Made by a program: the position numbers and the translations under genes. A stretch of DNA of 64,000 nt from Syntrophomonas sp. (lineage in GTDB: Bacteria; Bacillota; Syntrophomonadia; Syntrophomonadales; Syntrophomonadaceae): positions 62,001 to 126,000 of the forward strand of contig JAENYG010000005.1 in assembly GCA_016841875.1 (NCBI GenBank), in the 5' to 3' direction. Below the pieces are notes generated by a model. It worked only from the letters and a program-made list of their open reading frames with translations, did no database searches and had not been told where the DNA came from. Of this stretch, positions 25,683 to 62,589 are shown piece after piece. Position 1 is the stretch's first letter. Every line of letters starts with the position of its first letter.

Positions 25683-25825
25683 TGGGTTAACTTATTCTGT
25701 CCATACTATAAACCTTCAATATTACAATCATACAGAGGTTTTTGCCTATCGCCAGAGGGAGAGAGAAGACTGATACTGAATCCATGGAAAGAGGTAACTG
25801 ACCGGTCCAGCTATCAACCTTACTG

Positions 25826-25835
25826 TACAGCTGTA
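25826..25835. promoter_or_regulatory. TACAGCTGTA palindrome, possible enhancer site
   Basis: Perfect 10-bp palindrome about 120 bases upstream of the sigma-54 promoter at 25955. It resembles the core of the larger ATACAGTTGT/ACAACTGTAT palindrome at 28514. The role is inferred. Confidence 0.4.
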
Positions 25836-25909
25836 TGCAGAACCGGACAATTTATAGTCTCACTAATAAAGCCGCAGCATAGAGAATTTAGATTTAGGGA
25901 GGATATTTG

Positions 25910-25954: not shown

Positions 25955-25972
25955 CTGGCACAATTTTTGCTT
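25955..25972 (+). promoter_or_regulatory. Sigma-54 promoter of the 70-residue orphan protein
   Basis: CTGGCACAATTTTTGCTT has GG and GC separated by exactly ten bases and matches TGGCAC-N5-TTGC fully. It lies 44 bases before the start at 26016. Confidence 0.85.
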
Positions 25973-26015
25973 AATAATATATGCGTAATACTAAAAATGT
26001 TAGGTGATGATTGAT

Positions 26016-26228
26016 ATGCTTAAAAAGTTAGCAATGGTTAAGGGACCAGCCGGGTATTGCGATGGTAAAATGGGCATTATAGTTGCCATCCGGGACGAAC
26101 AACGAACCAGCAGTAAAGAAAGAACCTGCTTATACAAGTTGCTGGTAGATGGACAAATAAGCAGCTGGCTGCCCAGTGAATGGCTGGACATATTAGAACC
26201 CATTCCCAGCCAGGATGAAGCAATGTAA
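26016..26228 (+). CDS. 70-residue protein of unknown function under sigma-54 control
   Basis: Starts at the ATG at 26016, eight bases after AGGTGA. Sequence features are an N-terminal MLKKLAMVKGPAGYCDGKMG with two glycines and one cysteine, a beta-rich middle (GIIVAIRDEQ, CLYKLLVDGQ) and a SSWLPSEWLDILE end with two tryptophans. This could be a small SH3-like barrel. I do not recognise a family. Its dedicated sigma-54 promoter is the best evidence that it is real and belongs to the same regulon as the acyl-CoA genes downstream. Confidence 0.6.
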   Translation: MLKKLAMVKGPAGYCDGKMGIIVAIRDEQRTSSKERTCLYKLLVDGQISSWLPSEWLDILEPIPSQDEAM

Positions 26229-26470
26229 ATTAGAAAGCTTTAGATATATGAAGTTTAATTATTAAAAGACGATATAAATTCAGAAACTCCTCCTGCAAAT
26301 ATTACCTTGATACCCGCATATCTACTTTAGCTGCAGCTGTCGGGTACCAGGGTATAGAAGGTATGAAGCAGCTGGAAAGCTGGTTAAGGATATAAGGTTG
26401 TTTTCCTGTTTTTAAAGCTGCAGGATAATCATATAAATGAAGTTGACTGCAGCATTAAATAATCCACTCT

Positions 26471-26577
26471 GTCTCAAGCAGTACAGTTGTCAAGAGAATA
26501 ATCAATCAGATTTACCCCCTCAAATCTGATTTCCCATACGCTACCCCTTAGTCATTTTAAGCTGGACTGCTTGAGAC
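26471..26577. repeat. Nested inverted repeats
   Basis: Outer arms GTCTCAAGCAGT (26471-26482) and ACTGCTTGAGAC (26566-26577) are perfect. Inner arms AATCAGATTT (26504-26513) and AAATCTGATT (26522-26531) are perfect. The layout suits a structured RNA or a small palindromic element. Confidence 0.65.
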
Positions 26578-26607
26578 AATATTAAGAAGATCAAATCATA
26601 TAACATT

Positions 26608-26673
26608 AGACATATGCCAGGCAGATATCATTTCCACCCAAAAAACAGATATCTGTCTGGCATATGTCTTTTT
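26608..26673 (+). terminator. Long hairpin with T-run
   Basis: 21-base arms AGACATATGCCAGGCAGATAT and its inverse, with one mismatch, are followed by TTTTT on the + strand. It would end transcripts from the 26016 gene. Confidence 0.75.
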
Positions 26674-26961
26674 GGTTGGGCGGAAATAAATCAGCCTCCT
26701 GACCAGTGTCAGCAGCCGAGTAGAATTTTTTATAGTAAAAATAATGGTGAAAAAATAGGTTCAACTAATTGCTGGCTTGAGAACCGTGGAAACAGCGCTC
26801 GAAGTAGTGGCTGAATTTTATGGGTAGACTTGGGTGGTGCGGTTGAGGAGAAGAGGTTCAATTGAGGAGAAGATATTAATATACAAACATACTGTTCAGG
26901 TAGATATGGGTTGGTAGAGAAGAAGTTGATAGAGACACGGGAGTGCTATCCGAAAGCTGGC

Positions 26962-28386: not shown

Positions 28387-28402
28387 GCAAATACTGTGCC
28401 AA
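28387..28402 (-). promoter_or_regulatory. Sigma-54 promoter of gcdB
   Basis: On the minus strand this reads TTGGCACAGTATTTGC, a full TGGCAC-N5-TTGC match with GG-N10-GC spacing. It lies about 95 bases upstream of the gcdB start. Confidence 0.87.
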
Positions 28403-28513
28403 GAATAGATAGCAGACCAAGTTGAGCTTCAGATATGATTACTTATCTACATTATAAGGCAGAAATAAATAGAAGATGGCCTTTTTATATGAGGCGGTTA
28501 ATTTCTAAATGGA

Positions 28514-28545
28514 ATACAGTTGTTCGGATAACCGTACAACTGTAT
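28514..28545. promoter_or_regulatory. 32-bp palindrome between divergent sigma-54 promoters, probable enhancer-binding site
   Basis: Arms ATACAGTTGT and ACAACTGTAT are perfect, and the 12-base centre itself holds CGG-ATAA-CCG. It lies about 110 bp from the gcdB -24 element and 130 bp from the gcdC -24 element, a usual distance for upstream activating sequences. Confidence 0.7.
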
Positions 28546-28674
28546 GGGTAATATACAAGACAAGTTCTCTAGAAGAGATGAGAAATAGGATTGCTTCCTG
28601 GAACTGGTTTAGTTTTGGCAGTGAATACTAGTGGTGTATAATATAGGATAATACTCCCTAAATTGCTTGTTGCT

Positions 28675-28691
28675 CTGGCACAATATTTGCA
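28675..28691 (+). promoter_or_regulatory. Sigma-54 promoter of gcdC-gcdA
   Basis: CTGGCACAATATTTGCA matches TGGCAC-N5-TTGC with exact spacing, about 70 bases before the biotin-carrier start. Confidence 0.88.
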
Positions 28692-35466: not shown

Positions 35467-35483
35467 TTGGCATCGATTTTGCA
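35467..35483 (+). promoter_or_regulatory. Sigma-54 promoter upstream of the broken crotonase
   Basis: TTGGCATCGATTTTGCA has exact GG-N10-GC spacing. The core TGGCATCGATTTTGCAA is identical to the one at 46243. Confidence 0.85.
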
Positions 35484-35520
35484 AAATTAAATGTTGGGCA
35501 ATAATGAGGGGGAATAAATT

Positions 35521-35987
35521 ATGGATATTGGTCAGTTAATACTGGATGGACCAATCCTGTTAAATGTTAAGGAAAATGGAGTTGCCACTATAACACTGAC
35601 CCGGCCAAAGTCCTTAAACGCTCTAAATAGAGATATGGGGGTGGTATTTAACCTGGTAACTAGGTCATCACCGTGCTGCAGAAATATTATTTAGCGGCAG
35701 GATAACTAGATGCCAAGCAATGTTTGGATCTGGGTATTTTTAATAAAGTTGTGCCTCATGAAGAACTTTACCCTGAAGTATATGCCGTGGCAGACAGGCT
35801 GGCTCAAGGGCCTGTCATGGCCCTGAAGTATGTCAAACAGTTTCTGCGAGCCTGCGTTAACAATGATTTCCCTGCTGTTGCCAGTATGGAGGCCGGAGGA
35901 CAGGTTCAATGCTGGAGCAGCGATGATTTGCATGAGGGAGTGCAGGCATTTTTAGAGAAGCGTAAACCCCAGTTTAAAGGTCAATAA
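35521..35987 (+). pseudogene. Crotonase-family gene with internal deletion and frameshifts
   Basis: The ATG at 35521 begins a good crotonase N-terminus (ENGVATITLTRPKSLNALNRDM) that breaks off after about 45 residues. After a loss of roughly 120 codons the C-terminal third resumes (AAEILFSGR, then in another frame LDLGIFNKVVPHEELYPEV and on to FLEKRKPQFKGQ). Both catalytic glutamate regions are missing. It still has an intact sigma-54 promoter. An 87-codon open frame from 35724 covers the C-terminal part only. Confidence 0.85.
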
Positions 35988-39904: not shown

Positions 39905-39920
39905 GCAAGAAGGATGCCAT
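39905..39920 (-). promoter_or_regulatory. Sigma-54 promoter of CoA transferase copy 1
   Basis: On the minus strand this reads ATGGCATCCTTCTTGC, with GG-N10-GC spacing, about 120 bases upstream of the start. Confidence 0.85.
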
Positions 39921-40172
39921 AACCGATATATTGATACTAATAGGTCCGAGAACCGTCTAAACTGGCTGAATCTAGGTCAGATAAGAGCTTATTGCATCTA
40001 AATATAAGGAAAACCCAAAATGATGGGCTTATTGTTGATTGCGGTTTCTATATGGTATAGGTTGGGGTGTATTATTTGTGTCCAGCCTTGTATTAAAAAG
40101 ATACATAAGCAGGAGCAGGTTATAAGGTGATTCTGGATTGGGTTTTGATGCCCGCCGGAACAGGACCTGAGG

Positions 40173-40189
40173 TTGGCATAAAAATTGCT
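40173..40189 (+). promoter_or_regulatory. Sigma-54 promoter of crotonase copy 1
   Basis: TTGGCATAAAAATTGCT with exact GG-N10-GC spacing, about 200 bases before the start. It faces away from the 39905 promoter with ~250 bp between. Confidence 0.87.
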
Positions 40190-40390
40190 TATAAAGTTAG
40201 CAGTAATATTAGGTCAGGTGATTGACCAAAACTATAAACAACCGGGACATAATATGATTACGACCATAAAAGTAAGGGGGGAAGGAAGAATTTCAGGCGG
40301 CGGCCTGGAGATGTAATTTTATCAGTTAAGGCAACAGGATCAAGGAAGTTGATATCCTGGTGCCTCAGTTTAATAATAGGAGGTAGCCAC

Positions 40391-41185
40391 ATGTCATATA
40401 GAGACAAAAAGTATAATACCATGATTGTCAAGGTAGAAGACGGAATTGCCATAGTACAGATGAATCGCCCCGAAGCTTTGAATGCTGTTAACTGGGAAAT
40501 GATGCAGGAAAGAGCAGAAATATATGAAGCCATTGCCAAGGATCCTGAAGTAAAGGTAATGATATCCACTGGTAACGAACGTGCATACTGTGCAGGCGGA
40601 GACTTAAAGTCCTTTGTTTCCTTTGGAGTTAAGGAAGCCCGCGAGTTTGCTGATGGCGTAGTTAAGACTTGTGCCATCGTTGCTGACATGCCTAAACCCA
40701 CTATAGCCATGGTAGCTGGAATTGCCATGGGTGGAGGTACGGAGAGCCTTCTCAATCACGATTTAAGGATCTGTGCAGATAATGCCAAATTTGCTCTACC
40801 CGAGATCAACGTAGGAATCTTTCCCGGTGGTGGGGGAACCCAAAAATTGCCGCAAATCATGCCGCTCAACAAAGCCAAGGAATTGGTTTTCTTTGGTGAA
40901 CCATTTGACGCTCAGACCGCTTTGGAAGTGGGTTTAGTCAACAAGGTGGTTCCCCTGGCAGAACTGGAAGAAGCCACCATGAAATGGGCGAAGAAATTAG
41001 CCAAAAAGCCGTCTTTCTCCTTGAGAATGGCCAAGGAAGCCTTGAATGCAGCCTGGAGTACCAGTTTAGAAAAAGGTCTGCAGATTGAAACTCACGGCTG
41101 GGCCATGTGCTACGGCACCCAGGATCAGGAGGAAGGCATGACTGCATTTATTGAAAAGAGAAAACCTAATTATATCGGCAAGTAA
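40391..41185 (+). CDS. Enoyl-CoA hydratase (crotonase), duplicated copy 1
   Basis: 264-residue crotonase converting enoyl-CoA to 3-hydroxyacyl-CoA. Visible: IAIVQMNRPEALNAVNWEMM, the oxyanion-hole segment RAYCAGGDLKSF, GGGTESLLNHDLRI (first catalytic Glu position), LPEINVGIFPGGGGTQKLPQIM (second Glu) and FIEKRKPNYIGK. ATG 40391 follows AATAGGAGGTAGCC. The protein is identical to that of the 61795 copy. Confidence 0.94.
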   Translation: MSYRDKKYNTMIVKVEDGIAIVQMNRPEALNAVNWEMMQERAEIYEAIAKDPEVKVMISTGNERAYCAGGDLKSFVSFGVKEAREFADGVVKTCAIVADMPKPTIAMVAGIAMGGGTESLLNHDLRICADNAKFALPEINVGIFPGGGGTQKLPQIMPLNKAKELVFFGEPFDAQTALEVGLVNKVVPLAELEEATMKWAKKLAKKPSFSLRMAKEALNAAWSTSLEKGLQIETHGWAMCYGTQDQEEGMTAFIEKRKPNYIGK

Positions 41186-61576: not shown

Positions 61577-61593
61577 TTGGCATAAAAATTGCT
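61577..61593 (+). promoter_or_regulatory. Sigma-54 promoter of crotonase copy 2
   Basis: TTGGCATAAAAATTGCT, identical to the copy-1 promoter. The sequence upstream of it is unrelated to copy 1, so enhancer sites may differ. Confidence 0.87.
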
Positions 61594-61794
61594 TATAAAG
61601 TTAGCAGTAATATTAGGTCAGGTGATTGACCAAAACTATAAACAACCGGGACATAATATGATTACGACCATAAAAGTAAGGGGGGAAGGAAGAATTTCAG
61701 GCGGCGGCCTGGAGATGTAATTTTATCAGTTAAGGCAACAGGATCAAGGAAGTTGATATCCTGGTGCCTCAGTTTAATAATAGGAGGTAGCCAC

Positions 61795-62589
61795 ATGTCA
61801 TATAGAGACAAAAAGTATAATACCATGATTGTCAAGGTAGAAGACGGAATTGCCATAGTACAGATGAATCGCCCCGAAGCTTTGAATGCTGTTAACTGGG
61901 AAATGATGCAGGAAAGAGCAGAAATATATGAAGCCATTGCCAAGGATCCTGAAGTAAAGGTAATGATATCCACTGGTAACGAACGTGCATACTGTGCAGG
62001 CGGAGACTTAAAGTCCTTTGTTTCCTTTGGAGTTAAGGAAGCCCGCGAGTTTGCTGATGGCGTAGTTAAGACTTGTGCCATCGTTGCTGACATGCCTAAA
62101 CCCACTATAGCCATGGTAGCTGGAATTGCCATGGGTGGAGGTACGGAGAGCCTTCTCAATCACGATTTAAGGATCTGTGCAGATAATGCCAAATTTGCTC
62201 TACCCGAGATCAACGTAGGAATCTTTCCCGGTGGTGGGGGAACCCAAAAATTGCCGCAAATCATGCCGCTCAACAAAGCCAAGGAATTGGTTTTCTTTGG
62301 TGAACCATTTGACGCTCAGACCGCTTTGGAAGTGGGTTTAGTCAACAAGGTGGTTCCCCTGGCAGAACTGGAAGAAGCCACCATGAAATGGGCGAAGAAA
62401 TTAGCCAAAAAGCCGTCTTTCTCCTTGAGAATGGCCAAGGAAGCCTTGAATGCAGCCTGGAGTACCAGTTTAGAAAAAGGTCTGCAGATTGAAACTCACG
62501 GCTGGGCCATGTGCTACGGCACCCAGGATCAGGAGGAAGGCATGACTGCATTTATTGAAAAGAGAAAACCTAATTATATCGGCAAGTAA
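61795..62589 (+). CDS. Enoyl-CoA hydratase (crotonase), duplicated copy 2
   Basis: 264 residues, identical to the product of the 40391 gene, with the same ribosome site AATAGGAGGTAGCC. Both catalytic glutamate positions are kept. It stands alone between the nfnAB terminator and the second sigma-54 activator gene. Confidence 0.94.
   Translation: MSYRDKKYNTMIVKVEDGIAIVQMNRPEALNAVNWEMMQERAEIYEAIAKDPEVKVMISTGNERAYCAGGDLKSFVSFGVKEAREFADGVVKTCAIVADMPKPTIAMVAGIAMGGGTESLLNHDLRICADNAKFALPEINVGIFPGGGGTQKLPQIMPLNKAKELVFFGEPFDAQTALEVGLVNKVVPLAELEEATMKWAKKLAKKPSFSLRMAKEALNAAWSTSLEKGLQIETHGWAMCYGTQDQEEGMTAFIEKRKPNYIGK

Follow-up and report, generated by a model that had tools for sequence, protein, structure and literature searches.

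A conserved small gene with a sigma-54-type promoter and a structured RNA 3' of it in Syntrophomonas: a candidate dual-function transcription unit

This report concerns a locus of a Syntrophomonas genome (G000, 3.97 Mb) at which a promoter of the sigma-54 type, a small gene and a conserved structured RNA follow one another on the same strand. The gene is called ORF70 after the 70-amino-acid protein, of an unnamed family, encoded by its open reading frame (ORF; 26016-26228, + strand); positions refer to the 64,000-nucleotide (nt) stretch that was analyzed, C31:62001-126000, hereafter the window. We think it about an even call that 25956-26675 forms a single transcription unit, dependent on sigma-54, from which two products arise, the small protein and a conserved structured RNA of the 3' untranslated region (3'-UTR), tied to fatty-acid oxidation. 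With somewhat less assurance, and as a tentative proposal, we suggest that this is a sigma-54-controlled dual-function RNA of syntrophic bacteria, in which one transcript, bearing a small protein and an RNA of families that are both new, would tune fatty-acid oxidation both through the protein and through the pairing of a C-rich loop with messenger RNAs (mRNAs). Comparison of G000 with four further genomes of the genus (G001-G004, of which G001 is the closest relative) establishes that the gene is real, that its promoter is conserved, that a conserved RNA fold is encoded on its strand, and that promoter and RNA recur as a unit.

The reading frame starts at the ATG at 26016, after the ribosome-binding site AGGTGAT (26002-26008, +), which reads AGGTGA in G001-G003 and AGGGGA in G004; the good ribosome site described in a first-pass annotation of this stretch is thus confirmed. 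Each of the four other genus genomes searched has an ORF70 orthologue (identity 81, 70, 60 and 54%); the differences are concentrated at third codon positions and, where computable, the ratio of nonsynonymous to synonymous substitution rates (dN/dS) is 0.07-0.19. By this measure ORF70 is under purifying selection, and the check proposed earlier, a search for homologues with a conserved coding pattern, comes out in favor of the gene. A conserved small ORF under selection, as in dual-function RNAs of the RNAIII, VcdRP and SR1 kind, is therefore found here. Profile searches extend the family to 12 intact members in 5 of the 23 genera of the Syntrophomonadaceae, with no relatives in other families of the order and none beyond the family among 398 genomes sampled from the phylum.

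The promoter itself (25956-25971, +) is a perfect match to the -24/-12 consensus TGGCAC-N5-TTGCT, reading TGGCACAATTTTTGCT, just as had been claimed. Across the genome the exact pattern occurs 27 times, as against 2 for a reversed-pattern control, so the -24/-12 sites of G000 can be taken as real signals; within the window, 13 sites with at most one mismatch compare with 2.3 expected. All five orthologues keep the form TGGCA[C/T]-N5-TTGCT at 57-60 nt 5' of the ATG, and a -24/-12 site also lies upstream of both ORF70 paralogues of G000 (C19:299-481 and C23:19422-19607), while relatives from two other genera carry the near-matches TTGGTATCAATTTTGCA and TTGGTACGTATCTTGCT. A conserved TGGCAC-N5-TTGCA/T element at a suitable distance is what would be looked for in a sigma-54-dependent gene. 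Because orthologues exist, dN/dS is low and the promoter is kept in five genomes, we take both gene and promoter to be real. The upstream palindrome of the first-pass annotation is also there: TACAGCTGTA, at 25826-25835, is a candidate activator (enhancer) site 130 base pairs (bp) 5' of the promoter. The block around it (25810-25849) is 93% identical to G001, which has the palindrome at equal distance, as against 35% and 60% for the flanking blocks. It was not seen in G002-G004, which makes the case for an enhancer site weak.

The best-conserved part of the locus is, by sequence identity, not the protein but an RNA core (26464-26578, +), a long stem around an inner hairpin, which starts ~235 nt after the ORF70 stop codon and 5' of a terminator-like hairpin. 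In the four other species, identity to the window is 85-94% for the core, 66-83% for the ORF, 31-67% for the spacer between them and 9-48% for the terminator. A 275-nt region that includes the terminator folds with a z-score of -8.1, and in an alignment of six copies 94.5% of the cells pair, compared with 29-46% in slid controls. Five pairs in these copies are changed on both sides, a number reached by 1 of 500 shuffles; three of the pairs so changed lie in hairpin 1 (GCUGCAG ... CUGCAGC; 26411-26459, +), which precedes the core. Among pairs predicted on both strands, G-U variants number nine on the ORF strand versus one on the other (one-sided binomial 0.011), and the element therefore appears to be constrained as RNA in the direction of the ORF, so that a conserved RNA structure is found on the same strand as the conserved gene. 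The core is unlikely to be coding, since its length varies by 1-9 nt between species and its translated frames contain stops or shift from one species to another. A covariance model of the RNA matches all five genus genomes and none elsewhere among 63 genomes of the order. Rfam, 6S RNA included, holds no matching family, its only hits being eukaryotic, at chance level and under the gathering score; exact 17-mer matches on viral contigs were rejected, as the RNA model does not match there. Two further observations were made near the RNA in other species. Tandem arrays of ~45-nt repeats lie 3' of it in G003 and G004 (L049:9000-9560 and L050:1-330), and in G003 a good sigma-54 site (L049:8907, +) is aimed at the RNA from the opposite side, the next 1 kb being without an ORF of at least 48 amino acids.

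The long downstream terminator reported earlier corresponds to an intrinsic-terminator-like hairpin with 22-nt arms and a following T-run (26608-26675, +; inverted repeat 26608-26669), the sequence of which is not conserved; it lies 380 nt past the stop codon, however, with conserved structure in between. Likewise, the earlier description of a dedicated sigma-54 unit for one tiny protein holds as regards sigma-54, but the unit also carries an RNA more conserved than that protein. We infer from the following that ORF70 and the RNA would be carried on one transcript. The + strand of the window shows neither a terminator-like nor a sigma-70-like site between ORF70 and the core, and the stop-to-core spacing is consistently 226-298 nt. 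In G002, moreover, promoter, ORF and RNA have been jointly moved or duplicated: a second locus (G002:C38), upstream of what appears by inspection to be a sigma-54 activator gene, shows, in this order, a perfect sigma-54 site, an ORF70 relative in decay and the RNA, whose outer stem leads straight into a U-run. The order of promoter, ORF70 and RNA thus recurs, and promoter and RNA have there outlasted an intact ORF. All of this speaks against a reading in which ORF70, as a sigma-54 gene, and a non-coding RNA gene under a separate promoter are independent neighbors linked only by descent. We consider that reading distinctly improbable, even though one RNA copy with decayed stems (G000:C23:4743-4863) has no ORF70 alongside and the RNA is absent where ORF70 relatives occur in other genera.

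Stable 3' hairpins that protect mRNAs are common, and this counts in favor of a different reading, an ordinary small mRNA of which only the protein matters, the folded 3' region serving to stabilize the message or to end transcription. The outer stem at G002:C38, followed directly by its run of T, indeed looks like an intrinsic terminator. On the other hand, the loop and single-stranded segments of the RNA are as conserved as its stems, conservation is higher in the core than in the coding region, and the distinct terminator hairpin comes after the core and is free to vary in sequence. We hold an ordinary mRNA to be rather unlikely.

For the transcription unit with two products, we envisage that a sigma-54 activator would switch the unit on along with the fatty-acid-oxidation regulon, that the ORF70 protein would act on a partner in fatty-acid metabolism, and that the RNA, whether within the mRNA or released from it by processing, would present a C-rich loop. 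This loop, ACCCCCUC, lies at the tip of the inner hairpin (26514-26521, +); its unpaired probability is 0.99-1.0, and the motif CCCCUC is identical in six of six intact RNA copies. In regulatory RNAs of Gram-positive bacteria, C-rich loops that are accessible pair with ribosome-binding sites (PMC3861533), and the pairing region of VcdRP consists of four consecutive cytosines (PMC8672173). The loop could accordingly pair with G-rich ribosome-binding sites, possibly aided by Hfq, a canonical version of which is encoded in G000. Several observations weigh against this proposal. Ribosome sites rich in G are frequent (9 of the 49 ORFs of the window), so that specific targets cannot be named; the best two in the window (29133 and 35506) were rejected as specific targets and are not kept in G001. 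The outer stem is nearly invariant, and the covariation hence comes mostly from hairpin 1 and the helix ends. The RNA is limited to one genus, whereas the protein family is wider. Finally, conservation is poor in the spacer that separates ORF70 from the RNA, and the RNA may therefore have a promoter of its own in some species.

The protein was described at first as an orphan without a recognized family. This stands insofar as Pfam, NCBIfam and PHROGs return nothing usable for it and the family is unnamed in these libraries, but homologues and paralogues exist. Phage and plasmid collections gave chance-level matches or none, and a profile search of the PDB gave chance-level matches only, PsaE among them. 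Two candidate identities were rejected: the KOW domain (PF00467) matches four places in the genome at E values up to 10, none of which is ORF70, and the sole genome match to Hfq (PF17209) is elsewhere, on C42. A structure model built from two sequences is of low confidence (predicted local distance difference test, pLDDT, 61); it has four strands and one short helix, where an SH3-like small barrel would have five strands, and a fold search with it was uninformative. The protein is likely to be compact and mostly beta, with an accessory or regulatory role. Three of its relatives adjoin a divergent gene for a membrane protein weakly similar to acetate/succinate transporters; a SatP label for these proteins has weak support (a Pfam score below the cut-off, NCBIfam E values of 2e-6 to 4e-4 and an E value of 0.001 for the SatP structure). 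Further relatives lie near genes for a coenzyme A (CoA) ligase, an acyl-CoA dehydrogenase or a sigma-54 activator. A 403-amino-acid AAA-type protein, of which only AAA_lid_2 is recognized, is encoded 3' of the C23 paralogue on the same strand (L046:18116-19610, -), possibly in one sigma-54 operon with it.

By inspection of its ORFs, the window passes from a housekeeping section (atp, clpC, ispD/ispF, gltX) to a fatty-acid block in which genes for acyl-CoA dehydrogenase, enoyl-CoA hydratase, CoA transferase and thiolase are accompanied by many -24/-12 sites. In G002, two PAS-type sigma-54 activators stand in place of gltX as neighbors of ORF70, one on each side. The sigma-54 activator domain (PF00158) is matched 37 times in the 4-Mb genome G000, a number that suggests an extensive sigma-54 network. 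Recurrent siting near sigma-54 activators and fatty-acid-oxidation genes makes a regulatory role of the unit plausible, and to that extent the regulatory part of the role first suggested for it is sustained. A complex-assembly role could concern the biotin-dependent sodium-pump decarboxylase (OAD_beta, biotin carrier, carboxyltransferase) whose genes, under perfect sigma-54 promoters of their own at 28401 (-) and 28676 (+), adjoin ORF70 in G000 and G001, and of which ORF70 might be an accessory or assembly factor. In G002 and G003, though, no decarboxylase gene was found in the sequence fetched around ORF70 (~10 kb on each side), and this makes the decarboxylase unlikely as a general partner; relatives of ORF70 sit instead by acetate-transporter-like, CoA-ligase, acyl-CoA-dehydrogenase or AAA genes. 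We regard this last explanation as very improbable.

Elsewhere in the window, two divergent pairs of sigma-54 promoters (28402-28675 and 39920-40173) each enclose one perfect TGTAT-N7-ATACA palindrome, a candidate activator site. As a common enhancer motif it was rejected, being perfect only at these two pairs and not at ORF70, and not clearly more frequent than in shuffles. At 35468-35620 a sigma-54 promoter and a strong ribosome site precede an enoyl-CoA-hydratase-like frame that ends after ~60 codons and looks truncated; its counterpart in G001 has 282 amino acids. Two enoyl-CoA-hydratase genes (40174-41185 and 61578-62589), both of 278 amino acids with the first 70 residues identical and with equal spacing, appear to be near-identical duplicates, promoter included.

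How metabolism is regulated in syntrophic consortia is little known, as noted in a study of the Syntrophomonas wolfei proteome (PMC4324140). The present locus, with a sigma-54 promoter, an uncharacterized protein family and a structured RNA not listed in Rfam, offers a compact handle on regulation in syntrophic oxidizers of fatty acids. If mRNAs are regulated by the RNA, the syntrophic lifestyle would have in it a candidate regulatory RNA, and dual-function RNAs a case under sigma-54 control.

Among known systems, RNAIII of Staphylococcus aureus differs from the ORF70 unit in its many hairpins and in coding for delta-haemolysin, and its unit is not known to have a sigma-54 promoter. It resembles the unit proposed here in combining, on one transcript, a small ORF with a structured RNA that has accessible C-rich hairpin loops (PMC3861533); no sequence relation to the RNA described here, for which pairing is predicted, was found (no Rfam match). 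PAS-type sigma-54 activators are described from S. wolfei, and similarly built activators flank ORF70 in G002; the excerpts of that literature at hand mention neither an ORF70 homologue nor a small RNA. CrcZ of Pseudomonas likewise has an activator-driven, RpoN-dependent promoter and a part in carbon-source use, but it titrates Hfq by way of A-rich motifs (PMC4063720), whereas here the exposed loop is C-rich and a conserved ORF is present on the putative transcript. VcdRP of Vibrio cholerae differs in that VcdP has 29 residues, as opposed to 70, and in that its promoter is of the -35/-10 type and repressed by CRP, as opposed to the sigma-54 type; it joins a small protein and a conserved pairing region with four consecutive cytosines on one transcript concerned with central carbon metabolism (PMC8672173), an arrangement akin to that proposed here.
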